Source: a virus. From it: a stretch of DNA of 26,937 bases. A program made the translations under genes and the position numbers. The DNA is taken from IMG/VR virus record IMGVR_UViG_3300005915_000093, positions 1 through 26,937 of that record; one strand, 5' to 3'. The notes under the pieces are model-generated. The model did not search any database and was not told the origin of the DNA. It worked only from the letters and a program-made list of their open reading frames with translations. Of the stretch, positions 2,831 through 26,937 are shown piece after piece (the first letter of the stretch is position 1; each line of letters starts with the position of its first letter).

Positions 2831-3233
2831 GAAGTGTGTATTGTGCATAGTAGTTGTGATTATGTTGGCAGTAGCCCCACTACTATGTGGGTGTAGTAAT
2901 CCTACAGAGCCTATAGATATGTCCCAATATTATATAAGGTATACTGTTGAAACAGATGACAATGCTCTTGTAACTATATACAAGGATGGGGAACTATATG
3001 AATATAGTTTTGAAGATGGCTTAGGCACACTTGGCTTTAATCCAACAAGTACAGATACGGCTTATATAAGTGTGGTGTTTTGGAATGATTCACCTGATAG
3101 TCTTTGTTTTAGTGGCACTTCAGTTAAGGTTCAATTATGTCCCAAATATTTGGGTGGGCGGTTTTTGTTATTTTACGAAAATGATATGAGTCCACAAGGT
3201 AATATTGCGTTTTCTTGGAATGGAGAGTTTTAA
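2808..3233 (+). CDS. Predicted lipoprotein (141 aa)
   Basis: From ATG 2808 the protein has a lysine-rich start, a hydrophobic stretch (residues 10-27) and a lipobox L26-C27-G28-C29, so it should be lipidated at C29 and anchored in a membrane. The mature part is beta-rich and acidic (YIRYTVETDD, LVTIYKDGELYEYSFEDG). The ATG at 2808 is preferred to the TTG at 2799 because AAGGAG at 2792-2797 is too close to the latter. The gene looks more AT-rich than its neighbours, which fits recent acquisition. Phage lipoproteins in such positions often block superinfection; that role is inferred here, not shown. Confidence 0.75.
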   Translation: MKKPNLSKKCVLCIVVVIMLAVAPLLCGCSNPTEPIDMSQYYIRYTVETDDNALVTIYKDGELYEYSFEDGLGTLGFNPTSTDTAYISVVFWNDSPDSLCFSGTSVKVQLCPKYLGGRFLLFYENDMSPQGNIAFSWNGEF

Positions 3234-3676
3234 TGCCTAATCCAATTAATGAAGACCCTGTAATGGCGGCTAGGGGCGTTGCTGAATATAGGGCCATGCT
3301 TGGGGATGCTGAAGTTCAGGCTGCTTTGGAACTGAACCTTACTGGGTCCACGCCGGGGTCAACCCTGCCAGATACCTTAATAGTATTTAGAACTGAGGAT
3401 AATGACTACGCCCATGCTGATTACTATGGAACTGATATACCAACACTTGCAGATAGTATGTCAAGATTTGGTATTAGCTTAATACCTGACGGTAGGGATA
3501 TAGGAGTATATTCTATTGATATCCCCGGCAATATAACAGTAAGCCTATCCGCGCTTAAGGCTGAGTTTATCCGTATATCAAACATGATGAATGAGTCTTG
3601 TGACCCTTCCTTGGCTAAGGGGCTTGGTATGGGGATGGAAACGTGGATTAGTACCCTAGTAGGCACAGATGCTTAA
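3233..3676 (+). CDS. Chimeric protein: portal-gene fragment joined to an unknown domain (147 aa)
   Basis: Residues 6-45 (NEDPVMAARGVAEYRAML onward to LTGSTPGSTL) copy residues 35-71 of the portal protein encoded at 6972, then continue with portal PGSTL from 28 codons further on. The remaining 100 residues (IVFRTEDNDYAHADYYG to the end) match nothing I recognise. The natural start is ATG 3233, which overlaps the lipoprotein stop as TAATG and has GGAGAG seven bases upstream. The open frame is intact and flanked by tight overlaps with both neighbours, so it appears translated. The function is unknown; the portal-like part could let it interact with head proteins or simply supply a start. Confidence 0.7.
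   Translation: MPNPINEDPVMAARGVAEYRAMLGDAEVQAALELNLTGSTPGSTLPDTLIVFRTEDNDYAHADYYGTDIPTLADSMSRFGISLIPDGRDIGVYSIDIPGNITVSLSALKAEFIRISNMMNESCDPSLAKGLGMGMETWISTLVGTDA
3248..3366 (+). repeat. Duplicated portal-gene segment with internal deletion (derived copy)
   Basis: Bases 3248-3357 align without gaps to 7074-7183, with about 13 mismatches in 110 by eye, mostly silent or conservative. At CCGGG (3353-3357) the match jumps to 7263-7276, where CCGGGGTCAACCCT is identical for 14 bases. The skipped piece is 84 bases, in frame, and is bounded by CCGGG at both ends. Confidence 0.85.
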
Positions 3677-6971: not shown

Positions 6972-9143
6972 ATGTCTTTAATGAATGATATGATAAAGCT
7001 TGCTGCTGCTAATAAAGTAGCAAAGCCTGAGGTATTAGATAGGGATTCATGGGGAAGCTTTAAGCTAACCACTAATGAAGACCCTGTAATAGCAGCTAGA
7101 GGCATTGCCGAATATAGGGCCATGCTTAGGGATGCCGAAGTTCTAGCTGCTTTGGAACTACGCCTTACTGGGTCCATGCCGGGCTTCCAGATTCTTGAGG
7201 CAGATAGTTCCGGCGAGGCTGCTGAGTCTGCAAGGCTTATAAGAAAGATTCTTAATGTAATACCGGGGTCAACCCTTGGTATCCTGAGGGACCAAGTATA
7301 TAGAGAGGCCATGATATCAGGCTTCGTTATTGCTGAAGAGGTCCAACAGGTAATGGATGACCCTGAGTTTGGCTCGATAATTGGGCTTAGCTCTATTAAG
7401 GTGAGGCCGTCTGATAACTTCAGCTTTGATACCGATAGACACGGCAATATAACGCAGGTTAATCAACTAACCACTGGCGCTAGTACACCAGTACCTATGG
7501 ACAGATGTATATATTACGCTCCATTCGGTACTCCCTTCAACCCTTATGGCAGGTCTGCTCTCTATGCGGCATACAACGCATGGAAGCTTAAGACCCACCT
7601 ATTTAGGTCGTTCGGTGTATTCATGGACTCTAATGCTTCAGGTGTTAGGGTTGGCAAGATAAAGAAGGCTGACTTCGCAGAGCTTAGGGATAGGGTACAG
7701 ACCATTCTTGAAAGAATGAGTTCTAATCCTTCTGTAACCCTCCCTGACACTGTAGACCTAGACCTTAAGATTCCTAACGGTGCGGCTGGTAAGCATTATA
7801 TAGATGCTATTCGTGAAATCTGTAATAAGGAAATCAGGAAGGCTATACTATATGATGAGAGTATAAATGCCGAAGGTCTACACACTGGTTCCTATGCTAG
7901 TAGAGAAATGTCTAAGGGCATTGTGGATGAGGTACTATCGGCTTACGGCGCGGCATACGCTGAGATTCTGAATGAGCAACTTATTAAAAGGCTCTTGAAG
8001 TGGAATGGTATGGAAGATTACCCAGCCCCGACGCTGGTATCTATTCCCGCCGTAATTCGTAACGAGGACCCCGCCCCTATACTAGCAGCCCTTGCTTCAG
8101 CGTACCAGTCTGGTGTCCTCACAGAGAAGATACCCGCTCAGGTACAGAACGACATTATTAAGGTTATGGTAGAGGGTATTGGCACAAACTGGCCCGACGA
8201 GCTTGAGAAAGATGATAGTAATGCTATTTCGGCTCATGCATGTAGCCATACTATAGAGCTATCGGCCCCTGCTGGTAGGTCCAAGGCTGATATGATGAAG
8301 TACCGCAAAGAGGTTAAGGTAGCTGAGGCTGATGCCCTTGTAAGTTGGGAAGAAGCCATTGCTAAAGTAAGGCCCATTATGGAGACTGCTATAGGCAGGG
8401 TTCTATTCGATAGTAACGGCCAGTGGAGACCTGACATCATGGTTAATGGTGTACCTAAGTTGGGTATTATCAGGCAGAGGCTTGGAGAGGTATCACATAG
8501 GGGTGGAACTGAACTCAGGAAAACACTTAGGGTGATAGCAGAAGACTCCCGTAAACAGGGCGTTAGCCAAGCAGAAAGAATGGTCCCAAAGAAGGCCAGT
8601 ATCATACAGAGAAAGAGTGTGGCTCCTACGGCTGCTGAAGAGATACTAAGTCAAGATGTTTATATGGCCCTTAACGGGTTTTATGACGAGCTTGATAGAA
8701 GCATGTTCTATATAGTGAGGAACTCGGCACTTAATCAGGTGTCTCCTGACCTTACTGCTATGGACATTGAGACAGAGCTTGATAAGGCGTTTGGGGAGAA
8801 TAAATCAACCATACTACTTGCAGGAGTAATGGCAGGTGCCTATGTCATAGGTCAGAGAGAAGTATTTGACCCTAGCGTTATTGTAGGATTTAAGTATGAT
8901 GCTACGTTTGATGATGGAACCTGTGAGATATGTGACGCTTGGCATGATACATTCATAAAGGCTGATGACCCAAGTATGCCGGGGCTGCCTATGCACCCCA
9001 AATGTAGATGTGTTAAAATTCCGGTATATGCAGGTGAAGAGCCTAGTGGATGGTTAAGCGGTGGCGAGTGGGCTACCGTGGATGACACTGGTGGGATTGC
9101 GTCAAGTTTTCCCACACCTAACGGATATGGTGGAGGAGCATAA
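6972..9143 (+). CDS. Portal protein (DUF935, Mu gp29-like) fused to a MuF-like minor head domain
   Basis: The portal forms the ring through which DNA enters and leaves the capsid. Residues about 35-400 match the DUF935 portal family of Mu-like phages (YRAMLRDAEVLAALELRLTG, GFVIAEEVQ, LFRSFGVFMDSNASG, SYASREMSKGIVDEV). The C-terminal part ends with the MuF signature: CEIC at 651-654, H675-P and C678-R-C680. MuF proteins are minor head proteins that may be ejected with DNA. Here the two usually separate proteins are one 723-residue chain. AGGAG lies before ATG 6972. Its residues 35-71 are duplicated in the gene at 3233. Confidence 0.9.
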   Translation: MSLMNDMIKLAAANKVAKPEVLDRDSWGSFKLTTNEDPVIAARGIAEYRAMLRDAEVLAALELRLTGSMPGFQILEADSSGEAAESARLIRKILNVIPGSTLGILRDQVYREAMISGFVIAEEVQQVMDDPEFGSIIGLSSIKVRPSDNFSFDTDRHGNITQVNQLTTGASTPVPMDRCIYYAPFGTPFNPYGRSALYAAYNAWKLKTHLFRSFGVFMDSNASGVRVGKIKKADFAELRDRVQTILERMSSNPSVTLPDTVDLDLKIPNGAAGKHYIDAIREICNKEIRKAILYDESINAEGLHTGSYASREMSKGIVDEVLSAYGAAYAEILNEQLIKRLLKWNGMEDYPAPTLVSIPAVIRNEDPAPILAALASAYQSGVLTEKIPAQVQNDIIKVMVEGIGTNWPDELEKDDSNAISAHACSHTIELSAPAGRSKADMMKYRKEVKVAEADALVSWEEAIAKVRPIMETAIGRVLFDSNGQWRPDIMVNGVPKLGIIRQRLGEVSHRGGTELRKTLRVIAEDSRKQGVSQAERMVPKKASIIQRKSVAPTAAEEILSQDVYMALNGFYDELDRSMFYIVRNSALNQVSPDLTAMDIETELDKAFGENKSTILLAGVMAGAYVIGQREVFDPSVIVGFKYDATFDDGTCEICDAWHDTFIKADDPSMPGLPMHPKCRCVKIPVYAGEEPSGWLSGGEWATVDDTGGIASSFPTPNGYGGGA
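7074..7276 (+). repeat. Source segment of the portal duplication
   Basis: Bases 7074-7183 and 7263-7276 inside the portal gene correspond to 3248-3366 in the chimeric gene. The 84 bases between the two CCGGG runs (7179-7183 and 7263-7267) are absent from the copy. The portal reading frame is intact here, so this is the parental locus. Confidence 0.85.
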
Positions 9144-24062: not shown

Positions 24063-24569
24063 ATGCGGTCGATAGACCTGTTAGTAATACATCATAGTGA
24101 AACCCTTGGGGGGAATATTGACTTCCTAAGATATTGCCATGTAACGCCTCCCCCTAAAGGTAATGGGTGGATGGACGTGGGATATCATTACACAATAGCC
24201 AATGGTAAAAAGCATTATGCTTGGGAAGCCGCTGGGGATGGTTATGTTGAAGAGGGTAGGCCAGAGAAGAATGTAGGCGCACACGCAAGGGGTTTTAACG
24301 AGCATTCTATAGGGATATGCCTTATAGGAGACTTTGAAAACACATACCCTACTAATCTTCAGTTAGCATCGTTGGTAGAGCTTCTTATTAAGCTTTGTCT
24401 AAAGTACGACATAGACCCGATGAAGGGCATTAGAACCCACGGTGAGTTAATGGAGACCAAATGCCCCGGCAAGAACCTACAACACCTTATACCTACCGTA
24501 AGGCAAGCCGTGCGTCTTAGGATAGCCCACCAGAAACGGATTAATAAGGCCATCGAAGGCTTAGGATAG
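24063..24569 (+). CDS. N-acetylmuramoyl-L-alanine amidase (T7 lysozyme-like endolysin)
   Basis: This enzyme cuts the bond between MurNAc and L-Ala of peptidoglycan to lyse the cell. It is a single amidase_2 domain of 168 residues with the expected zinc ligands and catalytic residues: H10/H11 (VIHHSET), Y41 (DVGYHYTI), H126 (RTHGE) and K133-C134 (TKCPG). GAHARGFNEHSIGICLIGDF is the conserved core strand. There is no signal peptide, so it needs a holin to reach the wall. AAGGAG precedes ATG 24063. The lysis-region genes follow under late promoter 4. Confidence 0.93.
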   Translation: MRSIDLLVIHHSETLGGNIDFLRYCHVTPPPKGNGWMDVGYHYTIANGKKHYAWEAAGDGYVEEGRPEKNVGAHARGFNEHSIGICLIGDFENTYPTNLQLASLVELLIKLCLKYDIDPMKGIRTHGELMETKCPGKNLQHLIPTVRQAVRLRIAHQKRINKAIEGLG

Positions 24570-24657: not shown

Positions 24658-24792
24658 ATGGAGCAAGCTAAGGCAGAGGACCGACAGGACTACAAAAAAA
24701 CTAACAGGTGCCCCGACTGTGGCGGTCCCATTAAGCGAGAGGGTGGTTGCATGTCGTGTGCTTACGAATGTGGCTGGTGCTTATGCGGGTAA
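24658..24792 (+). CDS. 44-residue zinc-ribbon protein resembling the ribonucleotide reductase tail
   Basis: The frame ATG GAG CAA ... TAA has GAGAG before it and encodes 44 residues. The C-terminal half is cysteine-rich: C18-P-D-C21, C31-M-S-C34, C38-G-W-C41-L-C43. The pattern CPDCGGPIKREGGC...CGW matches the zinc-binding end of class II ribonucleotide reductases (CP.CG.......GC..C..CGW.). Ribbons with two CxxC pairs bind one zinc and mediate protein or redox contacts. Whether this small protein works with a host reductase or binds nucleic acid is unknown. The next frame begins ten bases before this stop. Confidence 0.7.
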   Translation: MEQAKAEDRQDYKKTNRCPDCGGPIKREGGCMSCAYECGWCLCG

Positions 24793-25028
24793 AGGCCATC
24801 AAGTGCTTAGTGTACAGCAGGGTAGTCGGCTATTTTACTCCCGTAAACAACTGGCACAGGGGAAAGAGGGCGGAGTTTAATGACAGAGAACTTCATTCGC
24901 AAGGGAAAGACCTATCTGATAGTGGTTTTAATGCTAGTAACAGTAGTGATGTTGAGGTGCCTGTGCGAGAAGAACCAGCCATCATCGGAGGGTTTGGTAG
25001 AATCCATTACGTCGCTAGTGCAGAATGA
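24783..25028 (+). CDS. Small protein with class III ribonucleotide reductase (NrdD) C-terminal motif
   Basis: From ATG 24783 the frame encodes 81 residues. Residues 9-35 (LVYSRVVGYFTPVNNW, then HRGKRAEFNDR) match the end of anaerobic ribonucleotide reductase NrdD, where (Y/R)(S/R)RV.GY.....NW..GK..EF..R carries the glycine that becomes a glycyl radical; G16 would be that glycine. The rest is Ser/Asn-rich and acidic. The start has no clear ribosome-binding site and overlaps the zinc-ribbon stop, so coupling or a -1 frameshift is possible. Its 3' half overlaps the next gene in another frame by 149 bases. Confidence 0.65.
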   Translation: MRVKAIKCLVYSRVVGYFTPVNNWHRGKRAEFNDRELHSQGKDLSDSGFNASNSSDVEVPVREEPAIIGGFGRIHYVASAE

Positions 25029-25536
25029 CTTTACTCCCGCTGAAATAATAGACCATCCAATCATACCAGACAGTGTTGACATACCCAATGAAGATATAAT
25101 CGAAGCCACCCTTACGGGGCATGGCCATGTATCTGTATGTGATACGGTATTGCCAGTCTTAGTAGAGTATGTAAAGCCTTTAGACACCACTCCGTTCGTT
25201 AAAGTAACCGTGGGGGATTCGACGGTAGTATTTGAAGAGCTTAAGTATTACGACTCTCAGGAAGGGCTATTAGAAGCCCCTCACTGGCGCGTAGGTATTG
25301 GGGCGTGTCTTATACACGAAACCATAGAACCTTCGCTCACGGGGCTGTATTACCCCTTAAAAACAGGCTCAGTATCTATAGGGATTGGTGTGGGTGTTGG
25401 CAATGCTTGGGTAGCCCCCATGATAAGGGTAGCACATGACATTACTAAACACTCCCATGTTGGAGCAGGTATAGGCCATCGGTTCTTCGAGGATGAGGGG
25501 TTGCACATAGAGGCAGGCATTGAGTTCGACCTATAA
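24880..25536 (+). CDS. Membrane-anchored protein in the lysis region (218 aa)
   Basis: A GGAG sequence lies four bases before ATG 24880, in TTTAATG. A basic N-terminus (FIRKGK) leads into one transmembrane helix (residues 12-27, YLIVVLMLVTVVML), followed by an outside or periplasmic part with a linker (about 30-85) and a glycine-rich beta region (WRVGIGACLIHE, VSIGIGVGVGNAWVAPMIRVAHD, GAGIGHRFFEDEGLHIEAGIEFDL). The end resembles a short beta-barrel or beta-sheet hairpin. Location after the endolysin and the single anchor suggest a spanin-like or lysis-accessory role, but no lipobox or coiled coil is visible. Confidence 0.75.
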   Translation: MTENFIRKGKTYLIVVLMLVTVVMLRCLCEKNQPSSEGLVESITSLVQNDFTPAEIIDHPIIPDSVDIPNEDIIEATLTGHGHVSVCDTVLPVLVEYVKPLDTTPFVKVTVGDSTVVFEELKYYDSQEGLLEAPHWRVGIGACLIHETIEPSLTGLYYPLKTGSVSIGIGVGVGNAWVAPMIRVAHDITKHSHVGAGIGHRFFEDEGLHIEAGIEFDL

Positions 25537-26583: not shown

Positions 26584-26937
26584 TTAAACCTCTATCCCTA
26601 TGTTGTTAATGGAGTCCTCAAGCAAGGCTCTCGCTCTGAATATCCTCGACCTAACCGTGCCTTCTGGTATCCCTTGCTTTTTAGCTATCTCTGCATCGGG
26701 ATAACCGTCTATACGTAGAAGCATTGTCTCTCTAAATACTATTGGAAGGCTTTCAACAGCATCATAGATAGCCTCTACCATATCATTTTCGCCATGGACA
26801 TCTGCGGGGTCTATTGCGGAGGGGTCTTCGATGTCATCATTACCATACGGGGTGCGCCAAATTGGCACACTCTTGCCTAGAACCCTGTCCCCTCTCCGGT
26901 CTTTAAGGTGGGCATTTTTCATTATAACGAACAGCCA
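26584..26937 (-). CDS. ECF-type RNA polymerase sigma factor, N-terminus beyond the window edge
   Basis: ECF sigma factors direct RNA polymerase to promoters with a GGAAC-like -35 box. The visible 117 residues run to the right edge with no stop, so the start lies outside; the ATG at 26922 has no ribosome-binding site and is not the true start. Right at the edge, WLFVIMKNAHLKDRRGDR matches the end of region 2 (W.f...rN...d..R). After an acidic linker, region 4 is clear: LPIVFRETMLLRIDGYPDAE, then IAKKQGIPEGTVRSRIFRAR, with GTVRSRIFRAR as the DNA-reading helix. Five promoter sites in this window fit it. It leads the leftward cluster. Confidence 0.88.
   Translation of the reverse strand, partial: WLFVIMKNAHLKDRRGDRVLGKSVPIWRTPYGNDDIEDPSAIDPADVHGENDMVEAIYDAVESLPIVFRETMLLRIDGYPDAEIAKKQGIPEGTVRSRIFRARALLEDSINNIGIEV

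Follow-up and report, generated by a model that had tools for sequence, protein, structure and literature searches.

The linear viral record of 26.9 kb analysed here in its entirety (the window) encodes terminase, portal, head and tail proteins as well as an amidase endolysin (Pfam, PHROG), together with a small gene, ORF2, for a stand-alone glycyl-radical domain (GRD) of NrdD, the oxygen-sensitive class III ribonucleotide reductase that produces dNTPs under anaerobic conditions. ORF2 is likely to serve as a trans-acting radical subunit that inserts into the NrdD of the host; docking, radical loading, rescue of the enzyme, the benefit to the phage and the role of the preceding zinc-ribbon gene (ORF1) are the parts of this proposal that we infer. 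A radical subunit for the host enzyme is the best explanation because the free GRD keeps the loop residues, occurs in viruses without the catalytic barrel and is a normal chain in split NrdD enzymes. The evidence also tilts, by a small measure, toward the broader reading of a two-chain class III reductase whose exchangeable radical subunit is widely carried alone by viruses of anaerobes and plugged into the host enzyme.

ORF2 (24783..25028, + strand) is an 81-aa frame that lies in the −1 frame relative to ORF1 (24658..24792, +). The two genes overlap by exactly 10 bases (24783–24792; ATGCGGGTAA), as a preliminary description had it, because the best ORF2 start is the ATG at 24783; an alternative TTG start at 24747 is also in the open-reading-frame list. 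The protein matches the end of the Pfam NRDD family (PF13597, positions 533–562 of 562) above the gathering score, with E-values of 2.2e-7 for the 81 aa and 3.6e-8 for the first 40 residues. The last residues of the NCBIfam NrdD model TIGR02487 match ORF2 as well (E 1.9e-6). These profiles uphold the preliminary assignment of ORF2 to the class III NrdD tail. Also borne out is the earlier statement that no catalytic reductase domain lies nearby: ORF2 is the sole NRDD match in the record, which holds no catalytic NrdD domain, and no complete class III reductase was found, for which one protein or record would have to provide both a catalytic barrel and its finger-loop cysteine(s).

The conserved part of ORF2 is the NrdD GRD KCLVYSRVVGYFTPVNNWHRGKRAEFNDREL (24804..24896, +). 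In a structural model, residues 1–40 form a strand, loop, strand and helix (pLDDT 78–93), and residues 41–81 are of low confidence. The corresponding tail (24894..25028, +) is probably not conserved and overlaps, in another frame, the start of ORF3. The working part of ORF2 is about 40 residues long and ends near 24896, because the codon-position GC of residues 41–81 fits the ORF3 frame and not the ORF2 frame. ORF3 itself (24880..25536, +; 218 aa), the next gene, is in the frame of ORF1, has an N-terminal hydrophobic stretch and matches no family in Pfam, PHROG or NCBIfam; it probably just lies next to the system without belonging to it. A search with the whole ORF2 sequence found no relatives, and Foldseek with the ORF2 model gave no meaningful match. 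Because nothing resembles the ORF2 tail, relatives can be recognised by the motif alone.

The candidate radical residue of ORF2 is Gly16 (codon 24828..24830, +), which sits in a [ST]R[VIM]xGY motif. A profile of the GRD family searched against the PDB found the NrdD of T. maritima (E 0.004) and placed G16 on Gly621, which is the known site of the radical and sits in a loop that reaches into the barrel (PMC4493059). In an alignment of 59 viral and cellular GRDs headed by ORF2, Y11, R13, G16, Y17, P20, W24, K28 and E31 are invariant; several of these columns are fixed by the search patterns, and G16 was free in patterns B and C, the two further patterns that left the glycine codon open. All 99 stubs retrieved with such Gly-free patterns have the glycine (99/99), preceded by V, C, T, S, A or I, which supports the candidate glycyl-radical glycine of the preliminary description. 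The pN/pS ratio over the GRD core is low (0.16), although the search patterns prescribe many of the residues and so pull this value downward.

The invariant glycine also bears on whether the viral domain could be a decoy or brake that occupies the host barrel or activase and blocks or retunes host NrdD, for example to halt host DNA synthesis or to exclude other phages. A competitor is expected to bind in the same way as a helper, and the two are not separable by sequence alone. We regard a decoy as unlikely, however, as a pure competitor would not need the glycine conserved in 99/99 stubs, the phage itself needs dNTPs, and the same subunit is used productively in cellular split NrdD.

Stand-alone GRDs are common in viruses. 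A degenerate motif pattern recovered at least 120 stretches from IMG/VR; among the matches listed, short ORFs account for about 100 and long NrdD genes for about 22. The distinct stand-alone viral GRD proteins that we collected number at least 149 (length quartiles 52, 62 and 80 aa); among 149 of them, 86 have no ribbon, 34 have half a ribbon and 29 have a full zinc ribbon fused in front. We also examined 50 whole GRD-carrying viral records of at least 25 kb, a length that is no proof of completeness, so that a viral catalytic gene could lie outside the record. All except one (49/50) have only the NRDD tail (positions ~504–562) and no catalytic NrdD, and only 4/50 match Fer4_12, the NrdG domain. 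The tail-only content of these records and the absence of an NrdG-type Fer4_12 match from 46/50 therefore indicate that the partner must come from the host. Two candidate stub carriers were rejected: MT835493 holds a full-length NrdD, and the match in Oceanotoga phage UFV02 lies inside an annotated 1758-nt NrdD gene.

Some viruses have two GRDs, which are identical copies 3.5 kb apart in L031 (7272–7436 and 10813–10977) and two different proteins in G018 (L043 and L068). One group of viral GRDs sits in a replication module between a Sak4-like annealing protein, which immediately precedes the GRD, and an SSB-like protein (L005, L026, L104, L108, L111, L187, L192 and L193; also L008).

The sole exception among the 50 records is a 122-kb virus (G001) with a catalytic NrdD of 1069 aa that has no GRD and ends after '..SICPIHGYIPGKHEFCPYPHTEKQLAKWGVEVEIDE'. 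A 52-aa GRD of the same stub type, with ggaggt in front, follows 65 nt downstream, apparently making one enzyme in two chains. The catalytic protein also has two long inserts that are intein-like in look. The adjacency of the two halves in G001 would fit the idea that stand-alone GRDs are remnants or 3' exons, that is, leftover or split pieces of a phage nrdD gene. Introns split nrdD in Jug phages, and intron- or intein-split nrdD genes are known in phages (PMC12363816). A remnant or exon is nonetheless highly improbable: 49/50 records have no other part of NrdD, and a group I intron would not fit into the 65 nt that separate the halves in G001. Furthermore, each GRD begins at a start of its own, the N-termini vary and include fused zinc ribbons, and the motif residues are fully conserved.

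The radical subunit is also a separate chain in cellular genomes. A scan of GTDB genomes for stub-type GRDs identified 81 loci; most belong to Chloroflexota, Spirochaetota and Micrarchaeota, and the remainder are isolated examples from other phyla. In 59/81 loci, the GRD is preceded on its own strand by a catalytic chain that stops short of it, and in 4/81 the two are fused. The spacing between catalytic chain and GRD ranges from an overlap to 369 nt, often with a change of frame. Split loci were verified on the DNA for stops between the parts; the split was not cleanly resolved in L225, L244 and L256. Almost all of 30 genomes searched whole have a catalytic match ending at 521–538 and a separate tail match. 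Among Spirochaetota, 62/120 genomes have NRDD and about 50 of the 62 show the split pattern, a count for which the stops were read on DNA only in a subset of loci. NrdD is clearly split in 6 of 9 Micrarchaeota, and it is rare in Chloroflexota (4/121), where two of the four are split.

The GRD and the catalytic gene can be far apart. A genome assembled as a single 2.78-Mb contig (G096) encodes a catalytic chain of 708 aa without GRD at 1.447 Mb, whereas its sole GRD gene lies at 0.919 Mb; at a distance of about 0.5 Mb, the GRD must therefore act in trans, if the enzyme works. Metagenome-assembled genomes may be mis-binned. In three genomes (G114, G163 and G189), the GRD chain runs on into a glutaredoxin-like domain, as read from the sequence. 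Such fusions of the separate GRD chain, with a CPYCPA or CPNCPP motif in the glutaredoxin-like part, are seen in some spirochaete genomes (L420, 3419–4000; L421, 3617–4171; L422, 3638–4102). This arrangement suggests the delivery of radical and reductant in one subunit.

Extra GRD copies were identified in prophage-like regions as well. In a spirochaete (L398), the extra GRD directly follows an endolysin-like ORF in a region with integrase, tail fibre and baseplate genes. In another region (L395), it accompanies an integrase, a tail protein and a reverse transcriptase. A third copy (L409) is near a terminase, and a fourth (L406) has a weak terminase match. Of the genomes with such copies, G077, G125 and G145 encode in addition a catalytic NrdD that lacks the GRD, next to which lies a GRD gene of their own; the NrdD of G071 is fragmented where its contig ends. 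The prophage and chromosomal GRDs of G145 agree in the core LVMPTEVYSRIVGYYRPVQNWNEGKKQE, but across four genomes the similarity of the prophage GRD to that of its own host is only slightly above its similarity to those of other hosts. Not all extra spirochaete copies are in prophages. Several are beside ordinary chromosomal genes (L399, L402, L403, L408, L400, L401 and L411), with neighbours such as biotin ligase, lactate dehydrogenase, leucyl-tRNA synthetase, an SNF2 helicase and a histidine kinase.

The preliminary description had suggested a replacement part for a host reductase, a function that gains much plausibility from split NrdD in cells and from the prophage-borne GRDs found there. 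Viral stand-alone GRDs are common and the subunit is separate in many bacteria and archaea; hence, what the phage provides is probably a spare piece of the host enzyme. The glycine of NrdD receives its radical from NrdG and is also the point at which oxygen cleaves the chain. ORF2, which has no catalytic barrel of its own, would dock into the barrel of host NrdD, and host NrdG would load the glycyl radical onto its YSRVVGY loop. Where the host NrdD is split, ORF2 would supplement or take over from the separate radical chain; where it is a single piece, ORF2 would stand in for a tail lost to oxygen cleavage at the glycine, much as GrcA/YfiD repairs pyruvate formate-lyase (PFL). The phage would gain a dNTP supply that is kept or restored during replication. 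ORF1, probably translationally coupled to ORF2, may steady the docked tail in the manner of the zinc site beside the GRD in ordinary NrdD. Two precedents bear on this mechanism: oxygen-cut PFL is repaired by GrcA (PMC3019208, PMC8683613), and a separate tail domain of the class II reductase NrdJ failed in trans (PMC5704485). The latter result is a warning for tail domains in general and counts against a trans-acting ORF2.

ORF1 encodes a 44-aa zinc ribbon of the CPDCGG..GGCMSC type (MEQAKAEDRQDYKKTNRCPDCGGPIKREGGCMSCAYECGWCLCG); its ribbon pattern matches once in the window and not at all in 100 shuffles. Among curated families, ORF1 best matches the end of NrdJ (its final 41 residues; NCBIfam PRK08665, E 1.9e-4), at 19.8 bits against a cut-off of 961 that was set for the full enzyme and is a weak test for a 44-aa protein. 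The PHROG NrdJ family matches with an E-value of 0.86. The first four cysteines (C-x2-C-x9-C-x2-C) are common to ORF1 and the cysteine-rich C-terminal domain of NrdJ, for which the published spacing is C-x2-C-x9-C-x2-C-x2-C-x5-C (positions in PMC5704485). ORF1 then departs from it with C-x3-C-x2-C-x1-C (in full, C-x2-C-x9-C-x2-C-x3-C-x2-C-x1-C), and differs further in standing alone and in its weak profile match. Thus, the earlier description of ORF1 as a small zinc ribbon of the NrdJ-tail type stands, and the link to NrdJ itself is weak, given the score below the cut-off and the altered cysteine spacing.

Ribbons of the ORF1 type are present in many short phage proteins. A scan for the NrdJ-type ribbon returned at least 119 stretches and, among the matches listed, 19 short complete ORFs, none of which has a GRD within 600 nt. 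Also among the matches listed, the nearest short stand-alone ribbon to ORF1 is L318 (ICPECGGQLRNEGGCMYCPECGYCVCGAD). Several short stand-alone phage proteins consist of one NrdJ-type ribbon (CPxCGG..GC..C..CG in L318, L288, L305, L353, L280 and others) or fuse the NrdJ-type ribbon to a C2H2-like finger (L289, L331, L378 and L391). The NrdJ-type ribbon is absent from all 274 other loci compared. The ORF1–ORF2 pairing thus recurs neither in those loci nor near the short ribbon ORFs, and a recurring cassette of class II and class III parts is not supported. We infer instead, by analogy with the fused ribbon–GRD proteins, that the zinc ribbon of ORF1 is coupled to ORF2, because GRD loci are without such a ribbon and short ribbons are without a GRD nearby.

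The preliminary description had also raised a −1 frameshift, in which ribosomes slip in the overlap to yield a ribbon–GRD fusion like the one-ORF proteins of other viruses. The overlap is in the right sense for such an event, and 29/149 collected viral GRDs do have a full ribbon fused in front. The overlap has no canonical slippery heptamer (X XXY YYZ), however, and any RNA structure there is not beyond chance (z 0.77). Furthermore, the ORF2 ATG is within the overlap, and the domain order is equally workable as two coupled proteins. A frameshift product is accordingly very unlikely, and coupling of two separate chains is the reading that we retain.

The gene preceding ORF1 is the Amidase_2 endolysin (24063..24569, +; Pfam PF01510, E 1.5e-18; PHROG amidase). 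This position raises the alternative that the GRD was recruited for something else, such as lysis control or regulation, and kept its radical motif by descent. The GRD beside an endolysin-like ORF in L398 and those beside ORFs that read as amidase-like in L016 and L053 point in the same direction. Recruitment is still improbable, since the motif is preserved to the last NrdD position and the neighbours elsewhere are mostly unrelated to lysis, with one group in the Sak4/SSB replication module. The window has no tRNA, and no Rfam match lies close to ORF1 or ORF2. No relatives of its 895-aa tail protein were found in IMG/VR. Elsewhere in the window, the N-terminus of a 153-aa ORF (3215–3676, +; NEDPVMAARGVAEYRAMLGDAEVQAALELNLTGS) closely resembles that of the portal protein at 6972 (6972–7150, +; NEDPVIAARGIAEYRAMLRDAEVLAALELRLTGS), so that the beginning of the portal gene is partly duplicated in this ORF. 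A small ORF at the right end (26584–26922, −) has a match in PHROG 1740, a family of phage sigma factors for RNA polymerase (E 3.4e-9).

The idea of spare parts for glycyl-radical enzymes is known; we found no description of an NrdD spare part, of split, two-chain class III reductases or of the viral GRDs in the body of open-access papers that was searched. A 2021 study considered spare parts proven only for PFL and speculated about those of other glycyl-radical enzymes (PMC8683613). A large ribonucleotide reductase phylogeny could not see the GRD subunits because sequences of fewer than 400 residues were removed (PMC9531940). Our analysis adds more than 100 candidate spare or separate NrdD radical subunits from viruses and cells, and the natural two-chain versions are directly assayable. 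If the proposal is correct, viruses of anaerobic microbes may support the dNTP supply by means of a small protein, about 50 residues long, in place of a 700-residue enzyme, and a glycyl-radical enzyme other than PFL would have a spare-part system.

Among known systems, GrcA resembles ORF2 in being a small protein that stands alone and duplicates the tail in which a glycyl-radical enzyme carries its radical. Its members include YfiD of E. coli and the phage-encoded Y06I of T4, spare parts for PFL (PMC8683613) that are expected to restore the oxygen-cut enzyme. GrcA is of the PFL type and about 14 kDa, whereas ORF2 is of the NrdD type with about 40 working residues; rescue is proven for GrcA and proposed for ORF2. 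An earlier phage GRD, T4 vs.6, also belongs to the PFL-type Gly_radical family (PMC1524935), in contrast to ORF2, whose best and only Pfam match is NRDD. The only stand-alone GRD found in 50,697 GenBank phage records is AJP62049 of the ANMV-1 virus (KP703175; 144 aa), annotated as an anaerobic ribonucleoside triphosphate reductase. It resembles ORF2 as a stand-alone viral GRD with zinc ribbon cysteines in front, but has ribbon and GRD in one ORF and a ribbon spacing unlike that of ORF1. The GRD chain of the split class III reductases of Spirochaetota, Chloroflexota and Micrarchaeota has the domain, size and motif of ORF2 and a gene separate from that of the catalytic chain. ORF2 differs from these cellular subunits in lying in a viral record without a catalytic chain, in its HTH or ribbon context, and in having WHRGK at the position of their WNxGK.
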